Shown here: piece after piece, positions 1 through 19,062 of the stretch
Layout of the letters: each line of letters starts with the position of its first letter
How positions within the stretch are numbered: position 1 is the stretch's first letter
IMG/VR virus record: IMGVR_UViG_3300027974_000145
Span: 1 to 25,612 of that record
Length of the DNA: 25,612 bases
Strand: one strand, 5' to 3'
Source of the DNA: a virus
Made by a program: the position numbers and the translations under genes
Notes under the pieces: generated by a model
Database searches by the model: none
Told to the model about the DNA's origin: nothing
The model's input: only the letters and a program-made list of their open reading frames with translations

Positions 1-729
1 GTTGGCCTTTTTGGCCGCTAGGTCTGCCTGCGCCTCCCCCAAGCCCCAAAACGGCCCCCCGCGAGCGTGTCCGTCATCCGTATCTCCGCCGCCCTCCGCT
101 TCCACGTACCAGAGATCGCAATCTGCGTCCGACTCGCACCCCGAACCGCACGACTCCTCCTGACACACACCGTCACAGCAGTAGCCGGCGCAGCATGTGG
201 TGCCGCAGCAGGTCATACCTGATGGGCAGCAATTCCCATCGCAGCACACGCCACTGGCGCAGTCGGCTCGGTCATCGCATCCGTCCTCGGGCGGGGGCGG
301 CGGAAAAACGCTCTTCTTGCAGCGTTTGCACGAATTAGACCCATACCCAATGGGCGTGTACCCAGGCGGGCAAAAATACTCCGCCGAAGTGCAAGATTCG
401 CTAGGAAGGTCGCAGCAATAGACAATGACAGGGCCGGGGTCAGGCGGTGGTTCCGGCGGCTCCGGCGGTGGCGGCGGCGGATCGGACCCCGGGCAAACGC
501 TGCCTGGGCCACCAAACTCCCCTCCGAGATATTCGCAGTCGCACGGATTCCTTTGCTCGCAAATGGCGTCTTCGCCACTGGCGTACGTCCAGCACGCCCC
601 AGGCGTACAATCGTTATCGCCGCGAAACGTGCCTCCACCGCAGTTCTCGCAGGTGCATTTCCTCTTGCCCGTGGAGCAGTCCGCCCCGTTGCAGCAGCGG
701 CCTCGCTGGTTGCAATTCGACTCAGTCAC
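1..729 (-). CDS. Cysteine-rich, Pro-linker surface protein candidate (partial, runs off left edge)
   Basis: The frame is open from a GTG at 729 to the window edge, so the C-terminus is missing. The 243 visible codons include 35 cysteines, many in CC pairs such as GVCCDGNCCPSG and TCCGTTCC. Cys-rich blocks lie at about residues 6-70 and 100-210. They are separated by a Pro/Glu linker near residues 78-95 (PPPPPPEPPEPPPDPGP) and a second short Pro run near 138-142. I see no signal peptide. The pattern suggests a disulfide-bonded or metal-binding extracellular protein, which would suit the last gene of a tail-fibre module, but I cannot name the family. The GTG overlaps the stop of the upstream gene by 8 bases, the same geometry as at 18205-18212, and has only a weak ribosome site. 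The first in-frame ATG lies deep inside the second Cys block, so it is an unlikely start. High Cys periodicity, with no stop over 243 codons, argues for a real gene. Confidence 0.75.
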   Translation of the reverse strand, partial: MTESNCNQRGRCCNGADCSTGKRKCTCENCGGGTFRGDNDCTPGACWTYASGEDAICEQRNPCDCEYLGGEFGGPGSVCPGSDPPPPPPEPPEPPPDPGPVIVYCCDLPSESCTSAEYFCPPGYTPIGYGSNSCKRCKKSVFPPPPPEDGCDDRADCASGVCCDGNCCPSGMTCCGTTCCAGYCCDGVCQEESCGSGCESDADCDLWYVEAEGGGDTDDGHARGGPFWGLGEAQADLAAKKAN

Positions 730-1501
730 TTGGCTTTAAATACGTCAATGTTGTCAATTGCGGAATGACTCTTAGTCTTACTGGAAGCTCAACTGTGCTT
801 TCTTCGTAGTCAATCGTGCAATCGCTTTTCCAAGTAAAGTTCTGGAAGTACGGCACTTTCACAGTCGCTTCGATATCGACGTTGGCTAGGAGAGCGCGTG
901 TTGCGCGCCGGCCCTGCGCTCCGCCAGCAACGCCACCAAAAAACTGATCGCCTTCATTGATAACAATCTGGCCAACGGCCGCTGGGGGCGGAATGCGACC
1001 TCCGACAGAATCCCCCGAAGGAGACACGGGGACAGGAAACCCATTCATGTATTCAATGGTCATGTTTTGCGTGCTGACGGTGTTGTATTGGGCGTTGTCT
1101 GCAAATGTGTTGTCAAAAAATGAATTGCCTCCGACGTTAAAAGTCGGGCCACCGTAGTACTCGTTCGCAAAAAACTCTTGGTTCGTTGGAAAGGAAAACT
1201 CCGCGCCGCCGTAATTTGTGTTGTACCAACTGCCGTTGGAGTACGACCCTATCCCAGGAGCCTCAAAATAGTACTGGTTATAGTTCTGAGGGAAAAGCTC
1301 TTGGTATTGCTGCGGGTTCCACGCTGGCCCGCCAACCACCCCCTTGGTATTTGGCGGCTCGCGAGGGGCAAGGTTCACATCCCCGCGATGCGCAAGCGGC
1401 TGCTGGCAATTGCCGAGCGCCTGCATGAGAGAGCGGACGGCGCTGTCCGGAAGTGCGCCGGAGAGGGCGTTGACGAGTGCTGGAACTTGCTGCGTAAACA
1501 T
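722..1501 (-). CDS. Tyr/Asn/Phe-rich virion protein candidate
   Basis: This 259-residue protein has a short helical N-terminus (about 1-30) and then a long stretch (about 60-150) rich in Tyr, Asn, Phe and Gly. A more ordinary beta-type region at about 180-255 ends the chain. There is no transmembrane segment or signal peptide. The ATG overlaps the stop of the propeller-like gene (TGATG at 1499-1503), so translation is probably coupled. Its place after two tail or surface genes and before the Cys-rich gene suggests a distal tail or fibre-associated component. The aromatic, Asn-rich composition resembles low-complexity adhesive or fibrous proteins, but I do not recognise a family and the function is inferred from position only. 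Confidence 0.82.
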   Translation of the reverse strand: MFTQQVPALVNALSGALPDSAVRSLMQALGNCQQPLAHRGDVNLAPREPPNTKGVVGGPAWNPQQYQELFPQNYNQYYFEAPGIGSYSNGSWYNTNYGGAEFSFPTNQEFFANEYYGGPTFNVGGNSFFDNTFADNAQYNTVSTQNMTIEYMNGFPVPVSPSGDSVGGRIPPPAAVGQIVINEGDQFFGGVAGGAQGRRATRALLANVDIEATVKVPYFQNFTWKSDCTIDYEESTVELPVRLRVIPQLTTLTYLKPSD

Positions 1502-4104
1502 CAGGACACACCATCCACAGTGAGGCCGTACAATTTCACCGCATTGGCTGGCTGCGAGGATGCCTGCGTCCCAGCCATCGCAATAGCGACATGCCTGTCG
1601 CCACCGACATTATGCTCGTCGCGGTGACCGGACAGATACGCACGCGCAAATCCGTTTGCGTCACCAAGGGGAGAGCGACCGCGACCCATGTTAAGCGTGG
1701 ACTGCGTTCCTGCCGACAGGAATCCTCCACGGTCGCTGACGATTGCGTTCGCGCGCGGAGTTGGAGAATTGTTGTAGTGCAACCGCAATTGCAGATTGGC
1801 GTCGTTTTGCGTCGGCTCGTACAGCAATCCAACGGATCGGCTGCCCTTGTCGCCGTCCGTAATGGTGAAATTGCCGGTACGGAATTCGTACGGGATCGGA
1901 GAGCCTGGAGCATCCACATGGCCGGATGAATTTGTGAAGGTTCCGTCGCCCATGCCGTACAAAGAGACCTGTTTCCCAGACACCTGACCGACCGTTCCAG
2001 CAGTGACCGCGACGGGATATGTCTCCTCCCACCACGCCTTAGTCGCCGCGCAGTAGCACAGCGCGCGTGTTGAAAGCGACTCTCCCTGTCGGCAGTAGAA
2101 GAAGCGGATGACCTTGGAGTTCTGGTCGGCCGACACAAAGAAGACGCTGGACGCAGGGAAGTAGATCAGGCCGTCGCGCCAATAGTTGTCGATGGGAAGG
2201 GAGACAGCCGCTTCGGTCTGCCCGTCGAAGGCGTACATGCCGTAGCTGTCTGCGATGTACGCTACTCCGCCCAGCACGGCAAAGCACCTGCTGTTTAGCA
2301 TGCCGCGATACGCTGCGAGCGTAATGGATGCATCGATAACCGGCTGCGAGACGTACTGCAACTTGTACAGATGACGAGATTGGCAAATCAGCAGTGCGGC
2401 ACCCAGTGGAACAAGACCGACAATGGCGTCCGGATCACCTGCGTTTTCTTGCAGAACAAGTTCGTTTTCTTCCGGCACGCTCTCTGGCTCATCGATCTCC
2501 GAGAACAAGAGTGCATTGGGGCGCTCTCCGGTCGTGTCCACGGCATACCACGCGCGGTCCTGGAAGACGCATCCGACTGCGAAGCTCCCTGGGAGGACGC
2601 CGAAGCGCCTGGCGTTTAGCTGGCCGGAAGGCAGTACGACTGGCATCAGTCCGTAGTCGGCGCGCGTTGTGTCTTTAAGATCATCGTCCGAAAGCGTGTC
2701 GGAATACGCCCCGAAGAATCCTCCGTCCGTGCGTTGGATGGTGGCAACCCTGAACAACACCACGGACTGATCGGCTGTCGTGCGCCACAGTTCCATGGCG
2801 GTTACGCGATCTTCAATGCCCGGATGCGTGAACGACCACGTAATGCTTGGCGCACCCGATGAAGTTTCGACCTCCACAAGGTCTGAGATGGAGGACGGAA
2901 TGGGTCCGTTGCGGGATTCCGGCGTGGAGTCAAGATAGCGAATACAGCAAAGATACTTGCCGCTGATTGCGCTGGACATGGTGGCCGTGAGCTTGGCCTG
3001 CGTGTCCCTAATGACGGCAGTCGGCACTTGGAAGTACTGCCCGCCAGCAGTCACGGAGACTGTCGATACCGAACCGTTTAGCAACGACGCTCCGGCGGCA
3101 GCGCCAGCGCCATCGGGATCGTCTGCGGCTGGGGTAAACGTAATGACGGGCGGCGATACAAACCCGGCTCCTCCAGTGACAGCCGTGACACTGGCCACTC
3201 GGTATGACATAGACACGCGCACCTGCGCGCCAGTGCCTCCTCCCCCCAGGACACTTGCTGTCACGCCGCTCGTCGTAGCGCCGGTTCCGCCGGAGATGAG
3301 GCGGATCGTGTCCACTTTACCATCTGCAACTGCCGCAACGGCCACGGCAGATGTCAGCCCTTGCGCAGTGGAGAAGAGGACTGTCGGGGCCCCAGTGTAA
3401 CCAGTGCCTTGGTTGGTGATCGTGGCCGCGTAGACAGTTCCCAGAACGCCAACGGACAGTTGCGCCCCGCCAGCGATTCCGCCGTCCACAGAAACCGTGG
3501 GTGTGGTGGAGTACCCTTCCCCGCCGTCAGTGACAACGACGCTTGTCACTCGCCCATTTGTGATCGTGGCTTTCGCCTTGGCGTTTGCGCTGGGGCTGCC
3601 GCCCGTAAAACTCACGGTTGGGACGTTGTTGTACCCTACGCCAGGAGAAACGATCTGGATGTCTTTGACGTACCTTGCTCCGCCGCCAGTAGACGCGACG
3701 ATAGTCGGCCCAACAGCCGGCTTCTGGATTCCGATTCGGTCAACTACGGCCTTGTCGCCGTCCCAGCGGATTCCCCGCCCCATGCCGTCCACGCCGTACA
3801 TGTCATTGAAACGGCCCTTCAGGAACGCCATCGGGCGAATAGGGCCGGTGTACGCAAACGCCGTTGCGGCAGCGCCGGTGCCGCCGTTACCAGAGAACTG
3901 CACTTCCGGCGACCCTGTGTAGCCAGTGCCAGATGCAGTGATGACCACAGACTCCACGGCCGTTCCGGCCATGTGTGCAACGGCCGCAGCGCCCGTCCCA
4001 CCGCCGCCGACAATCGCGACGTTAGGCGGAGCGGTGTAGCCAGTTCCGCCAGCGACGAGCGACACGGAGACAACGCGATTAGGGGAACGAGTGGAGATAA
4101 TCAT
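1501..4104 (-). CDS. Propeller-like tail/stabilisation protein with inserted GxGY repeats
   Basis: 867 residues. Eight Gly-rich beta repeats of about 40 residues (consensus roughly GGxGYT..P.V...GGGGTGA) lie at about 10-88 (two copies) and 144-378 (six). Between them, residues 92-130 form a different segment (KGRFNDMYGVDGMGRGIRWD). From about 379 on the sequence looks like the beta-propeller of podovirus packaged-DNA stabilisation or tail-tube B proteins (P22 gp10/T7 gp12 type): a beta domain at 380-450, then LLFSEIDEPESVPEENE at about 532-548, a VGLVPLGAALLICQSRHLYKL strand pair, and propeller-like strands to about 750. The likely role is to plug or extend the tail nozzle. The ATG overlaps the stop of the upstream Fn3 gene (ATGA at 4101-4104). 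The family assignment rests on pattern memory, not on an alignment; an alternative is a tail-spike base. Confidence 0.85.
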   Translation of the reverse strand: MIISTRSPNRVVSVSLVAGGTGYTAPPNVAIVGGGGTGAAAVAHMAGTAVESVVITASGTGYTGSPEVQFSGNGGTGAAATAFAYTGPIRPMAFLKGRFNDMYGVDGMGRGIRWDGDKAVVDRIGIQKPAVGPTIVASTGGGARYVKDIQIVSPGVGYNNVPTVSFTGGSPSANAKAKATITNGRVTSVVVTDGGEGYSTTPTVSVDGGIAGGAQLSVGVLGTVYAATITNQGTGYTGAPTVLFSTAQGLTSAVAVAAVADGKVDTIRLISGGTGATTSGVTASVLGGGGTGAQVRVSMSYRVASVTAVTGGAGFVSPPVITFTPAADDPDGAGAAAGASLLNGSVSTVSVTAGGQYFQVPTAVIRDTQAKLTATMSSAISGKYLCCIRYLDSTPESRNGPIPSSISDLVEVETSSGAPSITWSFTHPGIEDRVTAMELWRTTADQSVVLFRVATIQRTDGGFFGAYSDTLSDDDLKDTTRADYGLMPVVLPSGQLNARRFGVLPGSFAVGCVFQDRAWYAVDTTGERPNALLFSEIDEPESVPEENELVLQENAGDPDAIVGLVPLGAALLICQSRHLYKLQYVSQPVIDASITLAAYRGMLNSRCFAVLGGVAYIADSYGMYAFDGQTEAAVSLPIDNYWRDGLIYFPASSVFFVSADQNSKVIRFFYCRQGESLSTRALCYCAATKAWWEETYPVAVTAGTVGQVSGKQVSLYGMGDGTFTNSSGHVDAPGSPIPYEFRTGNFTITDGDKGSRSVGLLYEPTQNDANLQLRLHYNNSPTPRANAIVSDRGGFLSAGTQSTLNMGRGRSPLGDANGFARAYLSGHRDEHNVGGDRHVAIAMAGTQASSQPANAVKLYGLTVDGVS
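2971..3675 (-). repeat. Six tandem Gly-rich beta repeats in the propeller-like gene
   Basis: This DNA encodes residues 144-378 of the 867-residue protein. Successive units share the order V..V.(V/I)T..G.GY...P.V.......(G)A.A.A, for example VTDGGEGYSTTPTVSVDGG and TNQGTGYTGAPTVLFS. The last two copies are degenerate: GxGY becomes GAGF, then GQYF. The repeats are clear as protein but diverged in DNA, so they are probably old or fast-evolving. Confidence 0.8.
3841..4077 (-). repeat. Two N-terminal Gly-rich beta repeats, separate block
   Basis: This encodes residues 10-88 of the same protein. The two copies are the best conserved: VAGGTGYTAPPNVAIVGGGG and TASGTGYTGSPEVQFSGNGG, each followed by TGAAA. 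They are cut off from the six-copy block by a non-repetitive segment of about 55 residues. Confidence 0.8.
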
Positions 4105-7100
4105 GTCGGTTCCGCGAACGCCCTTTCTGGCGGCGTAAACTCGCCAAAATATCTCCCGCCAGCCGTGACACGCAGCGTCTCCAAGTACGCGAGGTTGGTG
4201 GGCGCCATGAAATATTGCAGCCCGGATGTCGCGGCAATCCCACGGAAAGTACCTGTAAAATACAGATTGTCGTAGAATGGGCAGTTGACTCCATTAGTGC
4301 ATCCGTGCGTGGCGCACGGATATGTGTTGCTACTATTCCGAACAACGCGATCCGCGGCTGGCATGTTAGCATTCCACGACGAATACGAGGAAACGGCCGT
4401 AAGGGCGCGACCGTTCAGATAAACGCGAAGCGTATTATTTGCTGTATAGAAGAGCTTTTTCTGGGAAAACTCCACGGCAAGGTGAACCCATTGGTCAATG
4501 GCGTCATCTGAAATTGTAAAGTCGCTGCGGATGTAGTCGCTTTGATTTGTGACGCAGCCAGCGCCAGCAAATTCATTTGTATACGCGCGAACGATTAGCC
4601 TATATGGCGTTGTTGTCCCGGACGTTGGCAGCAACTGCGCGTCAACGTAAACGTGCCCATGCTCTGGGTTGGACGTTCCTCGCTGGTTCTCGTAAACGAC
4701 GGGAATGTATTTGAAAGACGTAGTGTTGATGCTAACGCCTTGCAGGTTGTTCCCAGTTCTCTGCACGCCGAAGAGGTAGCGGGCTGATGAACCCAAGCCT
4801 AACGCGGCTTGCACCCACGCCTCGCAGGTCAAAACATCGTCGGATCCGTAGTCGTATCTCCCACTCGCCGTACTTGCCGCCCCGGCAGTGGAAAATGCGC
4901 GATAGATAAACGGAGTATTTAGCGTCACGTACGCATCTCCGAATCTCCCAGTTCCCGTTGGCTGCGGGGACGAGGAGGAAATCAGCGACGTTGTCAGCTG
5001 ACCGCTACGCTCGCGAACGATAGACTTTCGCGACTGCGTGTCGTACAGAAACGTCACGCGGTCCCACGCGGAGTCGGCGTACGTTCCCGGAGCAGTCAGT
5101 GATGCGGTCACGCCGGTTGGCGTTCCGCTGACCGCCGTCCCACCGGCCGTTGATGCCGACGCACGCAACAGGAACGACACTGACGGAGGCTTGGAGATGT
5201 AGAAGCGAGCAAGCCCCCACTTGTGGTCTGGGTGGTATAACGTGGAATACGAACTTGGCGTCGGGAGCAGCAGACTGCTCCGCTTGTATTTCATTGTTGT
5301 TGGATGCAAAACGCCAGTATGCTCGCCAATAGTAGACCACGTACTGCCGCTATTGGTGCTAACCTCCAATAGAAGCGAGTCGGAATGATCAACACCAACG
5401 GATGGCATGATGATGTCTTGGATGATCCGCCCGTCATCAAACTTGGGCGTGAGGAATGTTGGCGCTGTGGTGACAGTTCCGGCCTGCGCAGTGACCGTCG
5501 TGTCGGCCGTCACGGAGCCCGCAAAATTGCCAACTCGCACCGTGAGCGTGCGGGATCCTGCCGCGCCTGTCGGGAACGTGATTGTTTTGGCAGAAAGGTC
5601 CGTGGCGACATTTGCAAACTCTATTCCGCCCTCCAGCCCCGCCGCCGCCAGCACGCCCGTTCCTGCGTTGGATACGGCCCACGTTACGGTCACGTATCCC
5701 GCCGAAACAGCCGAAGTCAGCGTCAGCCCTGTCGGGGCGACGGAGACCGCCTGATCGACAAGCGCGAGAGAATATGGGCTAGGCCCAACAGTAGTGATTG
5801 TTGAGACACGGAAGTTGTATCTCTTGGCCGACGAAAGCTGGTCGGTGATCGTGTAAGTGTTCGCGGCCGTTGTGCCGGTGGCGTTGATCCATGCCGTCGC
5901 GTTGGCTTCTTGGTACTGGACGCTATGCCCGGTGACAGTCGATCCATACGTCGCGCCAATCGTCCACCGCAAGGAGATTGAATTAGAAAACTCTGCGGTA
6001 GCCGTGCGAGACGTAATCGAAAGAGACGTTGGCGCAACGGCAACGCGGCCGGGGTACACGGCGTTGGATTGCGTGCTGTACGGGCCAGTGAAGTTGCGGT
6101 TGTTGACGGCTGCTACGCGGACAACGTACTCGTTGCCATTAACCAGCCCTGCAATCGTCGCCGGGGAGGCCGGGACCGTCCCGTAAGTACTCCACGTAGA
6201 TGCGGACGTTTGCTTGTACTGAATGACGTATCCGGTAATCTCAGCACCGCCGTTATTCGATGGCGTCGTCCACGACGCGGTGATTTGCATGTTCCCGCCA
6301 GTCGCGTTGGCGCCAGTCGGCGCAGTCGGCGCGCCAACTGGCGTGACGGCCGCGCCTGCTGTGCTGTAATTGCCAGTACCGACTGACGAAACCGCAGCTA
6401 CGCGAAACAAGTACGCGGTGCCGTTGGTGAGCCCATTGACAGTAGTTTGCGTGTTAGTGCTGGAGCCATCGCTGAACGTCGCCCAAGTGCTTCCTGAGTT
6501 GGAGCTGTACTGGATGACATAGTCAATGATGGCAGAGCCGCCAGTGTCCGCAGGGGCGGCCCAGCGGACGAGCGACAGTCCGTCACCGGATGTCCCCGTG
6601 ACGCTGGTTGGCGCCAGCGGAACTGTCTGCGGAACCAGTGCGCTGCTAGTGACTGTCGCGCTAGCGCCCTCTGAATTTACTGCCGCCACGCGGTAGCGAT
6701 ATGAGCTTCCGTTGGTGAGCCCCGTCGCCGTGTAGTTGGTCGCAGTGCTGGCGCTGCGCGTGATGACGGAGTAGGAGCCGCTGTTGACAGACACCTCAAT
6801 TTGATAATCAGTGATTGCGGCACCGCCCGTCACCGCAGGCGCAGCCCAAGAGAGTGCGACCTGCGCATTTCCGGCAGTTCCTGCCAGACTGGTCGGGGCG
6901 TTAGGGGTGGTGCGAGGAATGACCGCGGATGTCGCAGAGGAGTACGGGCCAGTGCCCACGGCGTTGACGGCCGCCACGCGATACCGATAGGAGCTTCCGT
7001 TGGTCAGGCCAGTGACCGCAAGCGATGTATCTGCGCTCGTGCCGTCACTTATTGTTGTCCAAGTTGACCCCCCATCGGTGGACTGCTGAATAACATAATC

Positions 7101-8069
7101 TGTGATTCCACCAGCGTGATTCGCTGGTGGCGCCGACCATAGCAGCGAGGCTTGCTGGTTTCCGTGCGAGGCCGATAGCGAAGACACCTGACCAGGAACG
7201 CCTAGCGGAAGAATTGGGGTCATCCACGCTATAAACTCGCTGCCTGCAATTGCGTTGCTGGCGGCCACGCGAAACACGTACGGCGACCCGTTGGTCAGCC
7301 CAGTGACTGTTGCAGTAGTTGCTGTCGATGTGCCGTCGCTGAACGTCGCCCATGTCGCGCCGCCGTTGCCGCTGTATTGCACGACGTAATCGGTGATCGC
7401 GGAACCGCCGTTATTCGATGGCGCAGTCCACGACAGCACGGCCTGCGCGTTGCCGGGTGAGGCAGTCAGGCTTGTTGGAGAACCTGGCGCGCCGACCGGA
7501 GTCACGGAGCTTGAGGCAACAGTGTAGTTGCCAATTCCGTACGCATTGGTGGACGCAACGCGGAACACGTACGTCGTGCCGTTAGCGAGGCCAGTGAGGG
7601 CGGCGCTGGTTTCTGATGACGATGCCGCAAACGTCCACGTTGCGCCGCCATCCGAAGATCGCTGCACTGAGTACGCGGTCACGCCGCCACCGCCGGAGAA
7701 TTCCGGCTCATCCCAATCCAGCGTGGCCGAGCCGCTTCCGGCAGACGCCGTGAGATTCCTGGGGATTCCAGGAACTCCTGAAAAAGACGGTGGTATGCCA
7801 CCAGCTGGCACTTGTGTGGAATATACGGCGCCAACGGCGTCTTGGTAAACAATCCCACCACCAGCAGATCGCTGATAATTAAACGCAGAGATCACGGGCT
7901 GCGTTGCGACGGCAGTCGAAGCAAACGTCACGGCCTGAAGCCCAGGACGAACGGTCAACTGGCCTGGGGCTACGGACTGGAGGTTTACCTGCGTGACTGC
8001 CGCGCCAGGGGGAATGGAATACGGACTGGCATTCGTGACCAGACCGGCCCACTTTTCGACTGTGATCAT
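4101..8069 (-). CDS. Large Fn3-array virion surface protein with lectin-like C-terminus
   Basis: 1322 residues from the ATG at 8069, which overlaps the adaptor stop (ATGA) and follows a GAGGG ribosome site; the in-frame ATG at 8117 would overlap by 52 bases and is less likely. Residues 1-97 (WAGLVTNASPYSIPPGAA, then PGQLTVRPGLQ) resemble the N-terminus of podovirus stabilisation proteins. Residues about 99-777 hold seven fibronectin type III domains, each ending in a Y.(F/Y)RV(A)A.N-type strand; the seventh is divergent. Residues about 778-868 look like another Ig-type fold. Residues about 1040-1290 (EAWVQ, then DQWVHLAVEF and LRVYLNGRAL) match the pattern of a LamG/concanavalin A-like lectin domain. 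There is no signal peptide, as expected for an assembled virion protein. The likely role is surface display and carbohydrate or host binding, anchored to the tail by the N-terminus. Domain calls are from visible motifs. Confidence 0.9.
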   Translation of the reverse strand: MITVEKWAGLVTNASPYSIPPGAAVTQVNLQSVAPGQLTVRPGLQAVTFASTAVATQPVISAFNYQRSAGGGIVYQDAVGAVYSTQVPAGGIPPSFSGVPGIPRNLTASAGSGSATLDWDEPEFSGGGGVTAYSVQRSSDGGATWTFAASSSETSAALTGLANGTTYVFRVASTNAYGIGNYTVASSSVTPVGAPGSPTSLTASPGNAQAVLSWTAPSNNGGSAITDYVVQYSGNGGATWATFSDGTSTATTATVTGLTNGSPYVFRVAASNAIAGSEFIAWMTPILPLGVPGQVSSLSASHGNQQASLLWSAPPANHAGGITDYVIQQSTDGGSTWTTISDGTSADTSLAVTGLTNGSSYRYRVAAVNAVGTGPYSSATSAVIPRTTPNAPTSLAGTAGNAQVALSWAAPAVTGGAAITDYQIEVSVNSGSYSVITRSASTATNYTATGLTNGSSYRYRVAAVNSEGASATVTSSALVPQTVPLAPTSVTGTSGDGLSLVRWAAPADTGGSAIIDYVIQYSSNSGSTWATFSDGSSTNTQTTVNGLTNGTAYLFRVAAVSSVGTGNYSTAGAAVTPVGAPTAPTGANATGGNMQITASWTTPSNNGGAEITGYVIQYKQTSASTWSTYGTVPASPATIAGLVNGNEYVVRVAAVNNRNFTGPYSTQSNAVYPGRVAVAPTSLSITSRTATAEFSNSISLRWTIGATYGSTVTGHSVQYQEANATAWINATGTTAANTYTITDQLSSAKRYNFRVSTITTVGPSPYSLALVDQAVSVAPTGLTLTSAVSAGYVTVTWAVSNAGTGVLAAAGLEGGIEFANVATDLSAKTITFPTGAAGSRTLTVRVGNFAGSVTADTTVTAQAGTVTTAPTFLTPKFDDGRIIQDIIMPSVGVDHSDSLLLEVSTNSGSTWSTIGEHTGVLHPTTMKYKRSSLLLPTPSSYSTLYHPDHKWGLARFYISKPPSVSFLLRASASTAGGTAVSGTPTGVTASLTAPGTYADSAWDRVTFLYDTQSRKSIVRERSGQLTTSLISSSSPQPTGTGRFGDAYVTLNTPFIYRAFSTAGAASTASGRYDYGSDDVLTCEAWVQAALGLGSSARYLFGVQRTGNNLQGVSINTTSFKYIPVVYENQRGTSNPEHGHVYVDAQLLPTSGTTTPYRLIVRAYTNEFAGAGCVTNQSDYIRSDFTISDDAIDQWVHLAVEFSQKKLFYTANNTLRVYLNGRALTAVSSYSSWNANMPAADRVVRNSSNTYPCATHGCTNGVNCPFYDNLYFTGTFRGIAATSGLQYFMAPTNLAYLETLRVTAGGRYFGEFTPPERAFAEPT
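5739..7775 (-). repeat. Seven tandem fibronectin type III units
   Basis: This encodes residues 99-777. Units begin near residues 99, 194, 291, 388, 483, 579 and 676, with a period of about 96 residues (288 bases). Each has the W(T/A)AP strand, the ITDY(V/Q)(I/V)Q strand and the TGLTNG turn. Parts are still nearly identical as DNA: a 20-base string is repeated exactly at 6246-6265 and 7404-7423, and the RYRVAAVN segments near 6681 and 6974 differ at few positions. Confidence 0.88.
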
Positions 8070-9181
8070 GTGCCCTCGTCGGGTTTGAGTGGGCTTCTCC
8101 AGCCGCCATCGTGCCACACTTCCCTGGACCGGCCGGAGAGAGGAGCAAGCTGATCCATCTCCATGGCCAATCTGAGATCCCGCTGGTACATGGAGAAGGC
8201 GTTGTCCGGCTTTTGATTTCGGACCCGTGCCAGCCAGTACTCCGCCGCAGAGTAGATGACGTTGTGCATGTGCGGCGGAACGTCAATGGGATCAGTGATC
8301 AGATACTTGGTAGTTCCTGCAATTGTCCCGGAGGTTTCGGTGGTCATGGATGTGGTCGAAGCGACATCGGTGATCTTCGACTCCGAGAACCACGGGGTGA
8401 TCGATGTGATCGGGCCGGGAATGTTGGTGGTGTCCCCAACACGGAGGACGGAGCCAATCATGCCGGGAGAGAACTGCGTGCTTGTGCCCGTGACTGCGGT
8501 AGTGGAGCGGGCAATCGTTCCGGCCCGCACGGACGCTTCGTGACCAGAGAACCGCAAGCCACGGGCAGTCCTCCGGTAAATGAAGTCAATCGTCTCGGCC
8601 TGGGTCGGATAGCCCAGGAGTTTGATTGCCCAGCCATCGGACGCCGGGTCTTTGATGACAGTCCAGTGGTACGGACGGCCGGAGGAGTTGGCCACCCGCT
8701 CCAACTTCATCGCAATGTCCGGGGTCACATACAGGCCGGACCACCAGTTGAATTCGTCGGACGGCTCATCCAGATTCCGGAAATCTGCCGGGAGCGGGTA
8801 GGTCACCCGATACAGGGTGTACGCCGTGCCGGCCGAGATGTTCCCAGTGAAACCGATATCCAGGGTGGCGACAGTACTGGACGAGGTGGACAAAATCCGC
8901 CCGATTGTGTCCCCGATGCGGATATGGGCTCCAGAGGCCCAGGAAGGCCACGTAGCGCCCGCCAGCGTGACGGTGGACCCGGACACCTGTACAGTACCAG
9001 TGCCCTGCGGAAGGCTTGTAATGAGCCGTCCGTGGACATGGTAGTACGCCCAGTCGCGAATCTGGGTAACTTCCGCATAGGACCGCTGCACGGCCGTCCG
9101 GATGTCCCGCTGTTCCGCGTCCTGGGGCCCGCCGAAGGACGACGTAATCAGGTGTTCTACTACGTCAAAATAGGTAAGCAT
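8066..9181 (-). CDS. Head-tail adaptor / connector candidate
   Basis: 371 residues, starting at an ATG with a GGAGAGG ribosome site. The helical N-terminus (1-50, with repeated Arg/Glu/Asp and YAEVTQIRDW) and helical C-terminus (about 305-345) flank two beta modules at about 59-128 and 219-298. This all-helical frame with a C-terminal YWLARVRNQKPDNAFSMY helix is typical of podovirus adaptor or tail-tube A proteins (T7 gp11/P22 gp4 type) in size and position, just upstream of the stabilisation-like genes. The role would be to sit under the portal ring and recruit the tail. The two beta modules share a (I/V)LRVGD/IRIGD strand and an SAGTAY/IAGTTKY strand, so they look like an internal duplication. 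The function is inferred from architecture and context. Confidence 0.85.
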   Translation of the reverse strand: MLTYFDVVEHLITSSFGGPQDAEQRDIRTAVQRSYAEVTQIRDWAYYHVHGRLITSLPQGTGTVQVSGSTVTLAGATWPSWASGAHIRIGDTIGRILSTSSSTVATLDIGFTGNISAGTAYTLYRVTYPLPADFRNLDEPSDEFNWWSGLYVTPDIAMKLERVANSSGRPYHWTVIKDPASDGWAIKLLGYPTQAETIDFIYRRTARGLRFSGHEASVRAGTIARSTTAVTGTSTQFSPGMIGSVLRVGDTTNIPGPITSITPWFSESKITDVASTTSMTTETSGTIAGTTKYLITDPIDVPPHMHNVIYSAAEYWLARVRNQKPDNAFSMYQRDLRLAMEMDQLAPLSGRSREVWHDGGWRSPLKPDEGT

Positions 9182-12262: not shown

Positions 12263-12789
12263 GTTCGCCCTTTCGCTTTGTAGGCATGTTTGTCGATGAA
12301 TCGCTCCCGCACTTCCCCAGCCTTGGCGCCAGGGTTCTTGCGGAGTTCCTTCCTGACCTCTTCGGCCACGATCTTTTCGTTGATCAGCTTCCGCTTCGGG
12401 GCGGCGGGGCCGGGGTCATAATTCACTGTCCCCGATACCGCGAGCCGGCGCTTCTTGGCCACTCGCAGGACATCGTCGTTGGACGAGACCCACGCCTCCG
12501 GGTCTTGCCAACGTCGCTTGTCAGCCAGACCGCCGCAGTAGTATTTACCGGAGATGTTGATCCCGGCTGCCTTGGCTTCTTTGACCATCCACTTGGCGGA
12601 TTCGGCGGGCATGTCGTTCAACTGCTGGTTGTTCATGCGGCCCTGCATAAACGCCCGGTCGGAGCCTTTGGTCCCGGGAGCGATCTGAAGAGCGCACATT
12701 TCCGCGAACCGCTCCCCATACTGAAGGGCGTTCTTGTAGACCTCCACAGCCTCTCGGCCGCGATCACTGATTTGCTGGGGGATTTGCAT
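12259..12789 (-). CDS. Basic helical protein downstream of portal, unknown function
   Basis: 176 residues, mostly helical and strongly basic in its C-terminal half (AKKRRL at about 111, KRKLINEKIVAEEVRKELRK, and a final KAKGRT). The N-terminal half contains FMQGRMNNQQLNDMPAESA and a GINISGKYYCGGLADKRRW segment. The start at 12789 overlaps the portal end by 26 bases; an AGGA lies about 12 bases upstream. No catalytic motif is visible. A DNA-binding or head-completion role would fit the charge and position, but that is inference. Confidence 0.78.
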   Translation of the reverse strand: MQIPQQISDRGREAVEVYKNALQYGERFAEMCALQIAPGTKGSDRAFMQGRMNNQQLNDMPAESAKWMVKEAKAAGINISGKYYCGGLADKRRWQDPEAWVSSNDDVLRVAKKRRLAVSGTVNYDPGPAAPKRKLINEKIVAEEVRKELRKNPGAKAGEVRERFIDKHAYKAKGRT

Positions 12790-14752
12790 TGGGTTGTGGC
12801 GGTCCTGGTGGGGATTGCGGGGGCTGTCCTGGGGGCGGAGGCGGAATCATGTAGCGAGCGACATCGACTTGCATGGCCTTGCCCCAGTCTTCCAAGAGAG
12901 CGTTGAAGAGTTCCGGCCTGCCGGCCTGGAGCAATCCCTGGGAGATGGGTGCGAGGATCTGCATGGCGTTGGTGATGTTTTCGATGCGGGTCGCGATGTT
13001 GGGCTTTCGCGCGCTGCCCGCCTCAACACGGTATGAGTATTCGCGGACGATGCTGTCCGGGTTCTCTCCCTGAACGTGCATGCCCCATGCCTGTGCGGCC
13101 ATCGGTCCCAGGAGCGGTTCGACATCCTGGGGATAGATCAACCATCGCGCACACAGGGCTTCCTTGCGGGCGACCTCCGAGAGAGCGTCTTCCAGGATCG
13201 AAGCGTAGTCGTCCGGCCGTACCGAAATCTGTTCCGCCTTCACCTGTGCTTCTGCGGCTGACCGGAACTGATTCCTGGTCATTCCGTAAACTAGCTCAGT
13301 CAGACCCACTCTGCGATCAAAGAGCGCCGTGACCTCTGCGATAATTTGGTACATGTCCTGGGTCACCCCGGGCATGTTGAAGACCGAGATCACATCGTTG
13401 ACCGACCGGCCAACGGCTTCGGAGATTTCGACAATGTTGAAGCCCTTCTCAGACTTCTCCAGGATCTTCGACTTCAGGTCTTGGTCCGCAGCCTTTGATA
13501 CGCCGATCAGCGTCTGCGATGAGGTCGCCACGCGGGTCGCAAGGAAGCTCATCGCCCAATTAATAAATCGCAATTCCCCGATAGCGGGACGGATCAAAGA
13601 GACCGGCCATGAGTATCCAGGTTTGCCGTGCCATGCGAGCAAGGTGAACGGCCAGCCGCCCGGTTCTGCCCAGAATGGAATCGGCCATTGGCAGGCCATG
13701 AACATTTGCTGAGACACGCCTGTTTCGTCTACCGGCTCCTGGAGCATGGGGAGCGGCATGTTCAGTGGAAACTCAACGCCTTCTGCCACAGCGAGGTAGC
13801 AGTTGGGGCCCATGGCGTCGAACTTGCCACGGAGGTCTTTGTCGGCGTCCTTCAGCCGGTCACCGAAGCCGGTCTTAGAATAAATCTCCCAGTAGCAGAC
13901 GATGTCGTTCGTCTGGCCGTTGCGGCGCTTGTTCTCATAGCCGCGTTCCTTCTCGTCCGACCTGGAGGCATACGATTCCAGGTGGCCCTTCAGATCGTCA
14001 CGGGACAAGCCAAACTTCGCCGCCACTTCATCGATGGGCTGAATACGCTTGCGGGCACACCAGCGGATGTCCTCAAACTCATCGGCATCCGGATCCCAGA
14101 CGAGGTTGTCCACTGAGTCGTAGAACGAACCGGCGAACTTCACTGCACTTCCAGGAGGGGAGTACAGTTCGTGCCACCACACGCCAGCGCCTTTGATGAA
14201 CGCCTCTTCCACAACCTTCCTGGAATGCTGCTTCAAATTCAGTTCGTTGGGCGTGTAGTTCAGATACTGTTCCAGGAGCGCAGCGATGATCTTGCGACGT
14301 TCGTAGTTGAACTGCTGCTGCTGCATTCCCTGCTGATAGGCCATCATCCCTTGGTCAGGCATCATCACCGGCTGGCCATCCGGACCCATGACAGGACCGT
14401 TGGGCCCCATCTGCGGAACCGGAGGCTGCGGGAAGATCCCCAGGAGTGGCGCCGGGACGATGGGGTAGTCCTTCGGCGTCACTGCCCGGGTGGGATTCCG
14501 GTGATGGATGACCGACGTAAAGAGGCGAACGGCCTCCCAGACGCGGTTCACGCAGATTCGCACGGCGGGAAGATCAATCCCCTTGGCATAGGCACGGGCC
14601 TGTTCAGGGCCCCACATGGCCTCCGGATCGGAGGCGTAGAACCCCAACGCTTCCTTCGCATCGTCACTGAAAGGTCGCTTATGGGTCTGCGCCAACTTTA
14701 TCAGCTTTAACCAGCCGGCAGTGATTGGCGCAAGTGGATTATCAGTACTCAT
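12764..14752 (-). CDS. Portal protein
   Basis: 662 residues from the ATG at 14752, which overlaps the HNH gene stop (ATGA); an ATG at 14824 would overlap by 76 bases and is rejected. Portal-type features are an N-terminal helical region with ICVNRVWEAVRLFTSVI (about 66-82), a wing segment with VWDPDADEFEDIRWCARKR (about 218-236), a long stem/wing region, and a helical C-terminal part (about 430-600; DDYASILEDALSEVARKE). It would form the dodecameric channel for DNA packaging. Odd features are a Pro/Met/Gln/Gly-rich insert at about 105-150 and a Pro-rich tail at about 635-662. Its length fits podovirus-type portals. The call rests on motifs plus proximity to the terminase. Confidence 0.9.
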   Translation of the reverse strand: MSTDNPLAPITAGWLKLIKLAQTHKRPFSDDAKEALGFYASDPEAMWGPEQARAYAKGIDLPAVRICVNRVWEAVRLFTSVIHHRNPTRAVTPKDYPIVPAPLLGIFPQPPVPQMGPNGPVMGPDGQPVMMPDQGMMAYQQGMQQQQFNYERRKIIAALLEQYLNYTPNELNLKQHSRKVVEEAFIKGAGVWWHELYSPPGSAVKFAGSFYDSVDNLVWDPDADEFEDIRWCARKRIQPIDEVAAKFGLSRDDLKGHLESYASRSDEKERGYENKRRNGQTNDIVCYWEIYSKTGFGDRLKDADKDLRGKFDAMGPNCYLAVAEGVEFPLNMPLPMLQEPVDETGVSQQMFMACQWPIPFWAEPGGWPFTLLAWHGKPGYSWPVSLIRPAIGELRFINWAMSFLATRVATSSQTLIGVSKAADQDLKSKILEKSEKGFNIVEISEAVGRSVNDVISVFNMPGVTQDMYQIIAEVTALFDRRVGLTELVYGMTRNQFRSAAEAQVKAEQISVRPDDYASILEDALSEVARKEALCARWLIYPQDVEPLLGPMAAQAWGMHVQGENPDSIVREYSYRVEAGSARKPNIATRIENITNAMQILAPISQGLLQAGRPELFNALLEDWGKAMQVDVARYMIPPPPPGQPPQSPPGPPQPNANPPANQ

Positions 14753-15420
14753 CCGACCACCTTCCAGGACTCGCCGCGATGCAGCATCGCCTCTAGTAGC
14801 TCTACGCGCTTTTGCAAGGCCCACACCTTGCGGTTGTGGTCAGCGTGCAGTTTCTGGTGTTTGCCACTTTGGACAACAACAAGGTTTTCCCATCGATTGT
14901 CGTCCTTAATGCCGTTCAAATGATGCACTTCTTCCTTGCGGCCAAGCATGCGGCGAAGATGCTCTGAGGCCACAAGGCGATGCTCCAATACGTAGCCGGC
15001 CTTGCTTGCCATTGGATGACTTGGGGCATGCACCATCACGTACCCCTGGACGGTGCGAGGACGGCCACCGCTCCACCTGGGGGCACATTCCCCCTTCCGA
15101 TTCTTTGTAGAAGAGCCGCGAGATCGCAGCCCAACCCGTGCCGCCAGCCTGCGGCGGACTGTTGTTTGGCTGCACCTAAACTGCGAGGCTACTTCTGCGG
15201 TGGACTTTTCGTCGCGCCAATATGCCAAAGCCATCTCGTCTGCCGGCAGGCGGATTCGCTCGCCGCCAATCCGGAGAGCGAATCCCGCCTTGCGCAAATG
15301 CTGCCCAACCGTCTTTCCTGTGCCGAGCCCCAGGCTTTTTGCGATGCCTTCACACGTACGACCTTCGTCAAAATACATGCGGCGCAGGTCTTCGGTGCAG
15401 TAATTCAGTCGGCTGGGCAT
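14749..15420 (-). CDS. HNH endonuclease with two helix-turn-helix units
   Basis: 223 residues, with AGGAG before the ATG at 15420. Residues about 8-48 and 57-100 are two helix-turn-helix units of the resolvase/Sigma70-region-4 type (CEGIAKSLGLGTGKTVGQHL and TAEVASQFRCSQTTVRRRL). Residues about 145-193 hold an HNH core of the homing-endonuclease type: EHRLVASEHL, then VHHLNGIKDDNRWENL with His166/His167, Asn175 and Asn179, and a closing KHQKLH. A short coiled coil follows (198-215). Such free-standing enzymes are usually selfish genes that cut intronless relatives; some assist packaging. It sits neatly between two stop/start junctions, so an insertion would have kept coupling to the portal gene. 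Confidence 0.92.
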   Translation of the reverse strand: MPSRLNYCTEDLRRMYFDEGRTCEGIAKSLGLGTGKTVGQHLRKAGFALRIGGERIRLPADEMALAYWRDEKSTAEVASQFRCSQTTVRRRLAARVGLRSRGSSTKNRKGECAPRWSGGRPRTVQGYVMVHAPSHPMASKAGYVLEHRLVASEHLRRMLGRKEEVHHLNGIKDDNRWENLVVVQSGKHQKLHADHNRKVWALQKRVELLEAMLHRGESWKVVG

Positions 15421-15429
15421 TGAACGCTC

Positions 15430-15741
15430 CTACTTCTTAGTGTCCTTTTCCGCCCGCTTCTCCAGCATGGCGACACGTTCCGAGAGGATGGCAAGCTGCC
15501 CGGCCGGCTTGTGCTGCCAAAAACCGTAGGACTTCCACGCCGGGAACTCATTCACGCCCGGGTCATCGACATGGTGGACGGACGACTTCTCCGTCCCGCC
15601 GTAGCCTGGGGAGATAGCCCACAACGTGAGAGTGCGGGCAGAGACATCCGTAACCAGGGCCGGAACTGGCTTGGCCCCCTCATGGGCATGGAAGAAGACA
15701 AACTCGCCCAATTCGGCCTTGGGCATGACGAAATCGCTCAT
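15430..15741 (-). CDS. Small beta-rich protein with C-terminal coiled coil
   Basis: 103 residues from the ATG at 15741, which overlaps the terminase stop (ATGA); the longer frame from 15885 would lie mostly inside the terminase gene. The N-terminal part is beta-rich with GEFVFFHAHEGAKPVPALV and an RTLTLWAISPGYGG strand, followed by a VHHVDDP loop. The C-terminal 20-25 residues form a charged helix with LAILSERVAMLEKRAEK heptads. The fold may be SH3-like. I have a memory of similar small proteins in other phages but no function. It is coupled to the large terminase. Confidence 0.8.
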   Translation of the reverse strand: MSDFVMPKAELGEFVFFHAHEGAKPVPALVTDVSARTLTLWAISPGYGGTEKSSVHHVDDPGVNEFPAWKSYGFWQHKPAGQLAILSERVAMLEKRAEKDTKK

Positions 15742-17417
15742 TGGTATTTCCCTTTCGGAGAGAGGTACAAGACACCGTCGTCGTCTTTCTGTTGGCGGCG
15801 GCGCTTGTCGGCCAGATACTTCACCCACCATGGCTCTGGCCCGGTAACCCTGGGGGGCTTGTGATACTTGGGTTCGTAGGCACACATGTACTCTGCGGCC
15901 TGACAGGCGTGGACTTCGCCTCGCGTCTGCGGTTCGTCGGTCACGTAGACCTGACCGTTCACCGTAGTGGTCTTCTTGCGGTAGCGCTTAATCTCTCGCA
16001 GGAAGTTGGGGCAGCCCCCATCCAGGACTTTGAACCGCGTCGTCCCGTCTCCTTGGATGTGGAGGAGCTTCCGCATCAGAGCCGTGCGGGCCGGGATGTC
16101 GTCTGAGCCTGGAGTAAATCCGAAGCCAGATATCTGCGAGCGGATGTTCCGCTTCTTCAGTTCCTCGCTGTATAGCTCATGCGGGAGTCTTCCTGACCCA
16201 AGGTCGCGGAGCATGCCGCCGTGCATGTCCATGATCCAGTTGTAGAAGTGCTGGTTCTGCGCCTTGGCTGCGAACTGCTCACCGAATATCAGGGCGTTGC
16301 ACTGCCGGATGTACAGTTCGTCATAGAACAGGATGAATCGCTCATCGGGCGGGATGGCTGCGAAGAGGCACGCCATGACCGTATGCCCAGGATCGATGGC
16401 AACGTATCTGGTCCAGTCGCTGGGGACTTGCCCGTCCGGGAGATGAGATCGTGGCATGACATGGACCGCCGTGTTGAACGTCGGATACATGAGCGTGGAT
16501 TCGGTGGTGAACTCGCCTTCCGCACGCATGCGGAGTTCATCTACACCGAGAGCCGACCAGCGTTCGATGTTCTTCTTTTTCTCTTCGTCATCAATCGCGG
16601 AGTTATCCAAGAAGCGCAGCGTGAACTTGCGGATGATTGCGTTGGGGTCGTTCTCCGCCTTCTCGGCACGTTCACACAGTCCAAGGAGCGCATCATTCTT
16701 GGAATGTGGCATGGCCGACCAAATAAAGCGGCCTTTGCGATCCGCGAGGCGAGCCTGCATTTCCCCCACCCAAGATTCATTGGACAAATCTTCGTCACAC
16801 CAAACCAAATCGGCCGCGAAACCTTGCGGGGGTTCACCTTCCGATGAGAAGCAGTAGATCGTCCATCCGGTGATCAACTCAGCCTTCTGGAGATAGCCGG
16901 CGTTCTTCTGCACCCAAGCGATTTCTTTGATCATTCTTGGAGGGATCAGAGGAGGCGCTGGTTTGGCCTCTCCCCTTCTCGCATCGTCCTTGCCGGGAAT
17001 GAATGCCCGCCACTTGTTCGTCTCCTCGTCCCGGATCATTCGGAACGCACCGGGGCGAAACAGGATCCTGTGGATGACCATTCCGATGTGGGTCCACCCC
17101 TTTCCCACGATCACAAGGTTGCCGCCCTCTTTGGGGTATTTGTTGTGCGGGTCTTGGCCTGTCGCAGCCCTAGCGATTTCTGCCGCAACACACAGCGTTT
17201 TCCCTGCACGGTTTCCGCCGATCACGATCCGCTCGCTCGCCATGCACTGGTGGATTTCGTCCTGCTTGGGCATGGGCGTGTACAGCCGCAACGCCTCAAT
17301 ACGACGTTCCGCGATCTCCTGCTGCAACTCCTTCATGGAGTCCAGCGCGTGCTTCGTCATGCCCGCAATCGGGGCACTAGCGGTCGGAGGTGGGGGGATC
17401 TTGGGGTGCTTGCGCAT
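15738..17417 (-). CDS. terL: Terminase large subunit
   Basis: 559 residues. The ATPase domain shows Walker A GGNRAGKT at 67-74 and Walker B DLVWCDED ending at 210, with a coupling-type region after it (WSAMPHSK). The nuclease domain shows the first acidic strand AIDPG with Asp342, then IMDMHGG with Asp397, and a final EVHACQAAEYM where the usual Asp seems to be Gln506. It is the motor and nuclease that cuts and pumps DNA through the portal. The start at 17417 overlaps the preceding small gene by 41 bases and has a poor ribosome site; the ATG at 17360 would remove the overlap and loses only a Pro-rich leader. The length is normal for the family. Confidence 0.95.
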   Translation of the reverse strand: MRKHPKIPPPPTASAPIAGMTKHALDSMKELQQEIAERRIEALRLYTPMPKQDEIHQCMASERIVIGGNRAGKTLCVAAEIARAATGQDPHNKYPKEGGNLVIVGKGWTHIGMVIHRILFRPGAFRMIRDEETNKWRAFIPGKDDARRGEAKPAPPLIPPRMIKEIAWVQKNAGYLQKAELITGWTIYCFSSEGEPPQGFAADLVWCDEDLSNESWVGEMQARLADRKGRFIWSAMPHSKNDALLGLCERAEKAENDPNAIIRKFTLRFLDNSAIDDEEKKKNIERWSALGVDELRMRAEGEFTTESTLMYPTFNTAVHVMPRSHLPDGQVPSDWTRYVAIDPGHTVMACLFAAIPPDERFILFYDELYIRQCNALIFGEQFAAKAQNQHFYNWIMDMHGGMLRDLGSGRLPHELYSEELKKRNIRSQISGFGFTPGSDDIPARTALMRKLLHIQGDGTTRFKVLDGGCPNFLREIKRYRKKTTTVNGQVYVTDEPQTRGEVHACQAAEYMCAYEPKYHKPPRVTGPEPWWVKYLADKRRRQQKDDDGVLYLSPKGKYQ

Positions 17418-17571: not shown

Positions 17572-18212
17572 CGCACATCGTTTCCGGAGTTGTCATGGGG
17601 AAGCGGCTGTCCCCGCTCTCCATCGGTGTCGGGGGATACCGGAGGCACAACCCAATTCGTGGCTCCTTGTTGACTTCGATCCACCACTTGCAAGTTTCGC
17701 ACTGCGTCATTGAGGTCTTTCTGTGGTAAGGCGTTGATAACCGTCGCCGCTTCCAGAACACGCTTCTGTAGCTCCGTTTCCAATTCGTCTTCGGACCAGA
17801 GGGTGAGCGGTTTCTTCGCACCACCATCGGCGGAATTTTGTGCAGTGAGCCGGACCATCGTCTCCAGCATCTTGGTCCTAAATGCACCGCCGGCAGGGGC
17901 GTCGTAGAACTGCTTCATCCAGGCATTGCCGAATCCAGCCACGCCACCGAAGTAGGTGTAGAGAATCTCCACCAGCTCAGAGGAATGGGGGATGTTCGAT
18001 CCACCCAGGCGGGCGGCGGCGATGAAGAGATCGACCGCACCCTTCTCAATCTCTTCCAGCTTCTTGTCGGTCTTACGCTTGCGCTTCTTCTTCGCAATCG
18101 TATTGCGGCAGTGACGGCACTTGGAGTGATAGCCGTCCTTCGACTTGTGGAAGTGTTTGGGGTCTAGCGGGTAGGTCTTGCCGCACTCGGCGCAGGTCCG
18201 TTCGCTAGACAC
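17568..18212 (-). CDS. Zinc-ribbon protein, small terminase subunit candidate
   Basis: 214 residues, starting at a GTG that overlaps the glycosyltransferase stop by 8 bases. A zinc ribbon lies at residues 7-35 (Cys7, Cys10, Cys32, Cys35; CAECGKTYPLDPKHF and CRHCRN), followed by a very basic patch (KKKRKRKTDKK). Residues about 50-160 are helical, with an LVEILYTYFGGVAGFGNAW core and a WSEDELETELQKRVLEA helix; the last 35 residues look disordered. The place just upstream of the large terminase and the DNA-binding-like N-terminus suggest the small terminase subunit. The ribbon replaces the usual helix-turn-helix, and I have no alignment to confirm it; a regulator is the alternative. Confidence 0.8.
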   Translation of the reverse strand: MSSERTCAECGKTYPLDPKHFHKSKDGYHSKCRHCRNTIAKKKRKRKTDKKLEEIEKGAVDLFIAAARLGGSNIPHSSELVEILYTYFGGVAGFGNAWMKQFYDAPAGGAFRTKMLETMVRLTAQNSADGGAKKPLTLWSEDELETELQKRVLEAATVINALPQKDLNDAVRNLQVVDRSQQGATNWVVPPVSPDTDGERGQPLPHDNSGNDVR

Positions 18213-19062
18213 TCACTTTGAACTTGGGCTTTAGGTCCACGATCTTCACGGCCGAATCGAAGTTGGCTTCCCAGGACTGCTTCAGCTTCTCGGAGATGTG
18301 CTTGGCTTCGATGAACTGCGGCTTGCCGACGCACTTCGGCTTCCAGTGGCCCGCCCAAGCATCCCAGTTACAGAACACGGGGTTGTAGCCCAGCTTCTGC
18401 GTGCCAACCAACGACAGATCGCGTGTCATGGTTACGTCTTCCGTCGATGCCTTTTCGGCCTGATAGCGATCACTCCACTCGTAAAAAAACCAGGGCTTGT
18501 CTGCTTCGGTCTTGGGTTCCGTGAGTTCAAAGGCCCGCATGTCGTACATGATCAGACCCGTGGGGAGCGCAGCACATTCCTGGATGCCGGACAGCTTCAC
18601 GGCCTGAGAGCGTTCGTACATCTTCAACTGGAAGTCCGGATTCGGATTGTCGGTCTGCATGTTCCGCCACTCAAAGACGTACACGCACTCCATCGGAGGC
18701 GGGCCGCAGTACGGGGCACCGATGACACACGGGCCCTTTTCGTAGTGGTCGTACAGGAACGAAAAGGACGAGGTGAAGAACGGCTTGCCGCCCTGTTCGC
18801 AGTCAGGCTTCATGTCCGAATCGATCATCACCAACACATCCACCCCGTACTCGCGGGCCTGGAGAACGGCCCGGTTGCGGGTCATGGTGATCGGCGTGTC
18901 GGCAAGGTTCCAGATGCGGATGTTCTCAATCCGTGGATCCCGGGAAGCCTCGGCAACGAGGGGTGTCATCCACTCCCTGATGTCTGGGACTTCAGAGGAA
19001 ATCCCGCCGTTGCCGCCGTAGGAGAACGTAACCAGACCGACGTTCAGCTTGCGTTGTTGCAT
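18205..19062 (-). CDS. GT-A fold glycosyltransferase
   Basis: 285 residues with an excellent ribosome site (GAGGTGA) before the ATG at 19062. The N-terminal Rossmann-like strand is KLNVGLVTFSYGG. Residues 73-83 are GVDVLVMIDSD, the metal-binding DxD motif of GT-A enzymes (Asp81, Asp83). Later motifs are ALPTGLIMYDMRAF at about 165-178 and STEDVTM at 206-212 (Glu208, Asp209), plus His239 in AGHWKPKC, which fits the acceptor/metal side of the fold. It would transfer a sugar from a nucleotide sugar to a virion protein, host glycan or phage DNA; the acceptor cannot be read from sequence. It is the first gene after a strong promoter and upstream of the packaging genes. Confidence 0.88.
   Translation of the reverse strand: MQQRKLNVGLVTFSYGGNGGISSEVPDIREWMTPLVAEASRDPRIENIRIWNLADTPITMTRNRAVLQAREYGVDVLVMIDSDMKPDCEQGGKPFFTSSFSFLYDHYEKGPCVIGAPYCGPPPMECVYVFEWRNMQTDNPNPDFQLKMYERSQAVKLSGIQECAALPTGLIMYDMRAFELTEPKTEADKPWFFYEWSDRYQAEKASTEDVTMTRDLSLVGTQKLGYNPVFCNWDAWAGHWKPKCVGKPQFIEAKHISEKLKQSWEANFDSAVKIVDLKPKFKVSV

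Follow-up and report, generated by a model that had tools for sequence, protein, structure and literature searches.

How tailed phages make and use proteins with up to 241 cysteines is the question raised by a locus at the edge of a 25,612-nt stretch of viral DNA (IMG/VR record IMGVR_UViG_3300027974_000145, positions 1–25,612; hereafter, the window). One open frame on the minus strand extends from a GTG codon at position 729 to the window edge, and its 243 codons in the window include 35 Cys codons (14.4%), as compared with at most 6.9% Cys in the other window ORFs of at least 100 aa and 0–2% in the adjoining structural genes. The initial annotation had described a Cys-rich protein with Pro/Glu linkers at the distal end of a phage tail module, encoded by a gene continuing past the window, and the ORF count and the sequence agreed with this description of its composition.

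A search of viral contigs identified the same DNA in IMGVR_UViG_3300009160_000004 (60,251 bp; 100% identity over the 8,729 bp compared). This contig reads through the window edge, with neither a stop nor a frameshift there, and completes the gene as had been anticipated; the full product (P0001) comprises 282 aa with 43 Cys (15%), ends with ...EECPP, and is terminated by TGA. The motif YCCDGVCQEE(S/E)C is present twice in the protein. P0001 contains no signal peptide-like segment, and such a segment was found by a rough rule in 7 of 191 relatives. Pfam searches with P0001 and ten relatives gave no match, the metallothionein profile included, and AlphaFold modeling with 8 sequences yielded no usable structure (pLDDT 41). 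Directly downstream of the Cys-rich gene, and just outside the window, lies a small gene that we call F. The principal features of the locus are as follows.

1–729, minus strand: Cys-rich gene, 5' 243 codons, with the GTG start at 729 (3' 39 codons at L002:8730–8849)
L002:8846–9292: F, 148 aa, overlapping the Cys-rich gene at ATGA
722–1501, minus strand: 259-aa gene directly upstream of the Cys-rich gene, with homologous genes at the same place in L055 and L047
1501–4104, minus strand: 867-aa virion structural protein with GGTGYTxPPxV repeats, matching PHROG baseplate, head-closure, and virion structural families
4101–8117, minus strand: 1338-aa tail-module protein, assigned from its sequence, with repeats that appear fibronectin-III-like by eye
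8066–9181, minus strand: 371-aa protein at a tail tubular A-like position, with no significant family match
12764–14824, minus strand: P22-like portal protein, by family matches
15738–17417, minus strand: terminase large subunit (TerL), by family matches
20570–21679, minus strand: major head protein, by family match

An 8-nt overlap (GTGACTGA) links the stop of the 259-aa gene with the start of the Cys-rich gene, and the 259-aa product shares 51% identity with the corresponding neighbor in L047. Across many unrelated phages, the genes upstream of the Cys-rich/F loci matched tape-measure and baseplate PHROGs, and those downstream often matched exonucleases or glycosyltransferases. The module was therefore placed at the distal end of the tail block, in line with the initial annotation, and the Cys-rich gene follows tape-measure or baseplate genes, the order expected of a tail-tip or receptor-binding protein. 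The 867-aa tail protein of the window contains repeats of the form GGxGYTxPPxVxxxGGGGxGAxA, and in L042 and L067 such repeats were linked to Cys-rich segments. By eye, a 223-aa ORF between the portal and terminase genes (14749–15420, minus strand) resembled an HNH endonuclease of the homing type, and a 285-aa ORF with a DSD motif beside the packaging genes (18205–19062, minus strand) appeared glycosyltransferase-like. In a related record, IMGVR_UViG_3300042507_002862 (60.5 kb; L096 and L097), the start of one Cys-rich gene was present at both contig ends, so this contig probably represents an entire genome, either terminally repeated or assembled as a circle.

Homologues of the Cys-rich protein in L047, L053, L055, L056, and L061 exhibited about 40% identity. 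In an alignment of eight sequences, 23 of the 30 invariant columns were Cys. Relative to the L047 homologue, the window protein kept 35 of 40 aligned Cys residues, 8 of them via a different Cys codon, at an identity of about 34% for non-Cys residues; this retention of Cys while the other residues diverged indicated that the ORF is coding. Comparison of L057 with L063 gave a dN/dS of 0.105, and 234 of 237 Cys residues were kept, 75 via a changed Cys codon, and the two comparisons together show selection of Cys at the protein level. As judged from these alignments, purifying selection has maintained the Cys positions across diverged phages, and the conservation on which the initial annotation depended was thus observed. 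A rule of odd Cys number, which had it held would have implied disulfides plus one free thiol, was rejected: 45 of 50 clusters in the first set were odd (p 4e-9), and the new families held out under the same start rule comprised 12 odd and 17 even. Common descent, with Cys changes occurring in pairs, may account for the surplus of odd counts in the first set.

The Cys-rich gene and F constitute a recurrent pair. Relatives of F were encoded in at least 295 viral contigs (the searches gave 194, then 295 and 292 loci), and the stop of the Cys-rich gene overlaps the start of F as ATGA in the window phage and most relatives. Among 51 loci that were non-redundant at the F core, the ORF upstream of F contained at least 5% Cys in 44, as compared with 13 of 457 background ORFs, and an N-terminal Cys cluster was present in 41 of the 51 and in 5 of the 457 others. 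In hold-out loci, which were fetched later and were non-redundant to the first set at the F core, the upstream ORF contained at least 5% Cys in 27 of 39, against 11 of 247 (p 5e-20). The extremes of the Cys-rich partners were a protein of 1,740 aa with 241 Cys and one of 365 aa with 22% Cys. One locus (L005:2111–6282) carried a split module of two consecutive Cys-rich genes, the first ending with NPLP and preceding an ORF that encodes an F N-domain alone (RGYTL type), and the second followed by the F C-domain. The pair is a previously undescribed two-gene unit located where the tail genes end in hundreds of uncultured phages; the literature searched contained no description of it, and none of the GenBank phage records searched contained it.

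F showed no significant Pfam, NCBIfam, or PHROG match, and neither its sequence nor its fold identified a PDB relative (no fold match at E ≤ 0.001). Rows such as HIV RT in the fold search were noise, and weak SAP-domain matches (best E 0.009) were below any cut-off. The predicted structure of F (pLDDT 92) consisted of two domains, an N-domain of about 50 aa and a helical C-domain of about 80 aa, the latter with the conserved signature CxCN...A..MD...WC. C86 and C88 were invariant in 44 F proteins, and helix 87–98 of the model directly follows C86; C103 was more than 90% conserved and was replaced in L013 and L092. F was also considered as a chromosomal family of planctomycetes and rejected as such: only 2 of 392 Planctomycetota genomes contained it, and in both the gene lay within phage DNA. 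A narrow-pattern genome scan gave no match, and a wider alignment gave five.

We compared the C-termini of the Cys-rich proteins with the N-domains of their F partners. An NPxP end (NPLP or NPFP) was present in 21 of 57 Cys-rich proteins and 2 of 590 background proteins, and in 12 of 39 against 1 of 247 in the hold-out; other Cys-rich proteins ended with CPP or had neither tail. All 32 NPxP tails were paired with an F N-domain of the RGYTLxxVxxC type, and 7 of 9 xPP tails with one of the RPxGYxxDVLS type. For tail-less Cys-rich proteins, the F N-domain was mostly a CxxC-ribbon-like segment or was absent. The match between tail and N-domain gave Fisher p values of 3e-14 and 2e-8, calculated with relatedness ignored and with classes set after inspection. 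In the subfamily of the window protein, the Pro tail was not universal, the L047 homologue ending with CIPD. Moreover, two independent fusions (L020; L055 with L049) joined the Cys-rich part to the F C-domain and lacked both the tail and the N-domain. The tail/N-domain match and the loss of both elements in the fusions suggested that F probably attaches to the tail and supplies its conserved CxC domain there; on the simplest reading, the N-domain would recognize the tail and so deliver the C-domain, and fusion would make this recognition unnecessary.

To identify the hosts, we relied on MAG binning and two prophages. Copies of TerL with 71% and 70% identity to that of the window were present in one Pirellulaceae MAG, the former on a 55-kb phage contig that also carried a Cys-rich gene and F, and TerL was found in none of 299 control-phylum genomes. 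A planctomycete contig with housekeeping genes, whose gene names were read by eye, contained a prophage with a Cys-rich gene (125 aa, 11 Cys) followed by an F-like gene. A second planctomycete prophage (G370) resembled the window phage in its structural genes and in TerL (38% identity) and lacked the Cys-rich/F pair, which indicated that the pair is accessory. At the place of the pair, this prophage had a 397-aa low-Cys ORF (L113:7591–8784; G370:C14), so the slot appears to be variable. Contrary binning was obtained for L086 (Alphaproteobacteria) and L087 (Verrucomicrobiales). Overall, the evidence points to Planctomycetota as hosts of phages with the module.

A GACC-C-C-GGxFxGxGxxC repeat, covered by no Pfam family in the phage proteins tested, was detected in 16 of 72 phage Cys-rich proteins (hmmsearch i-E < 1e-3). 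The Cys repeat of these phage members was found in 8 of 149 Planctomycetota genomes (in one case within phage DNA) and in two control phyla in 1 of 150 (spurious, with stops) and 0 of 145. Two of the planctomycete carriers (L105 and L106) had signal peptide-like N-termini and look secreted. A Planctomycetota ORF of more than 600 aa (L104; G004:C226:73732–76842) contained at least 13 tandem GACCLPDGHC...GGTYQGDGTTC repeats. The planctomycete wall is reported to be rich in proline and cysteine and stabilized by disulfides (PMC3035269). The initial annotation had suggested mimicry of a host surface protein; this idea gained some ground for certain members, whose repeat occurs in signal peptide-bearing Planctomycetota proteins, but does not clearly extend to the window protein, which did not match the repeat or contained at most a fragment (CEYLGGEFGGPGSVC). 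The phage Cys-rich protein may serve as an adhesin or mimic for the planctomycete wall.

On these data, we propose a two-gene module of Planctomycetota tailed phages in which a distal-tail Cys-rich adhesin is paired with F as the partner that binds its C-terminus, a reading to which we give an even chance of being correct. Composed of small Cys-rich modules that are connected by linkers rich in Pro or Ser, the Cys-rich protein would be exposed on the distal tail as an adhesin or tail-tip protein, and it may contact the host envelope, which is proteinaceous and Cys/Pro-rich. The variable N-terminal domain of F would bind the C-terminal tail (NPLP, CPP, or another type) and thereby bring the conserved helical C-terminal domain to the Cys-rich protein, with F serving in assembly, anchoring, or folding as a stoichiometric subunit. 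Virion location, disulfide bonding, adhesion, physical binding, and the role of the CxC domain are presumed in this proposal. Since an export signal is lacking, any oxidation would have to occur either with assistance inside the cytoplasm or once the cell has lysed. A more specific version, in which the CxC partner, guided by a C-terminal address tag, matures a disulfide-knit adhesin in the reducing cytoplasm and the host-type repeat attaches it to the planctomycete wall, is distinctly improbable as a whole.

The relationship between the two proteins could be read in other ways. F might be mainly a redox or metal-delivery partner, whose CxC oxidizes, isomerizes, or metallates the Cys-rich protein in a transient complex, and a disulfide-knit virion protein could then be made in a reducing cytoplasm. 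The two invariant cysteines and the largely conserved C103, the position of CxC at a helix start, and the nearly constant pairing of F with a Cys-rich gene are consistent with this role; however, the profiles and PDB folds searched gave F no match to thioredoxin, PDI, Mia40, or any further redox fold or family, C103 is replaced in L013 and L092, and the existence of fusions between F and its substrate points to a stoichiometric subunit and not to a catalyst, and we regard such a role as unlikely. We also doubt, to a similar degree, that the tail/N-domain match arose solely because a short stretch of DNA spanning the gene boundary is inherited as a block, with no interaction between the proteins. 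Although the tail and the N-domain are encoded side by side, the two genes being less than 10 nt apart in most loci, the tail is encoded by differing synonymous codons (AAC/AAT, four for Pro, and five for Leu), and the NPxP tail persists without the ATGA overlap (L057, L063, L083, and L215). NPLP is kept with TAG/TAA stops and, in L057 and L063, with a gap to F of about 100 nt, and tail and N-domain were lost together in the fusions.

The Cys-rich protein itself could instead be an intracellular metallothionein-like metal binder, which its extremely high proportion of Cys, its CC and CxC motifs, and the rarity of signal peptide-like segments would fit. We consider this very unlikely in view of the lengths of up to 1,740 aa, the tail-module position, the Pro/Ser linkers, the Cys repeat common to secreted Planctomycetota proteins, and the absence of a Pfam metallothionein match. 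Alternatively, the Cys-rich proteins and F could be non-virion moron genes at the tail-block boundary, such as superinfection-exclusion proteins or lysis-stage proteins that are released at the host surface. The exonuclease or glycosyltransferase genes often found downstream mark such a boundary, and the pair is absent from the related prophage G370; the 8-nt overlap with the upstream tail-module gene, the tape-measure genes close upstream in many unrelated phages, and the lack of an export signal nevertheless make this improbable.

The proposed adhesin–partner module marks hundreds of uncultured phages and offers a testable pair of a putative address tag and its reader. Very little is known about the phages of Planctomycetota, the probable hosts. 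Binding of the Cys-rich proteins to the proteinaceous wall of planctomycetes, if it occurs, would also offer a way to learn how such cells become infected.

Several phage Cys-rich proteins share GACC...C...GGxFxGxGxxC with secreted Planctomycetota repeat proteins but differ from L105 and L106 in lacking signal peptide-like N-termini. The closest fold match of F was A0A6J5QC46 of an uncultured Caudovirales phage, which aligned over the whole length (35% identity, E 1e-10) but has no annotated function. Tail fibers with dedicated assembly chaperones form gene pairs in Mu (S/U), lambda (stf/tfa), and T4 (gp37/gp38). As in these pairs, a variable, probably exposed tail-module protein is followed by a small conserved partner gene, F lying directly downstream of the putative fiber or adhesin gene, and the F type matches the C-terminus of the Cys-rich protein, which may reflect specificity of F for that region. 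Unlike in these pairs, the Cys content is extreme, and F lacks sequence similarity to any such family, carries a domain with an invariant CxC, and occurs in some loci as a fusion with the Cys-rich protein. Without belonging to any known family tested, the Cys-rich/F pair would work like a pair of tail fiber and chaperone.
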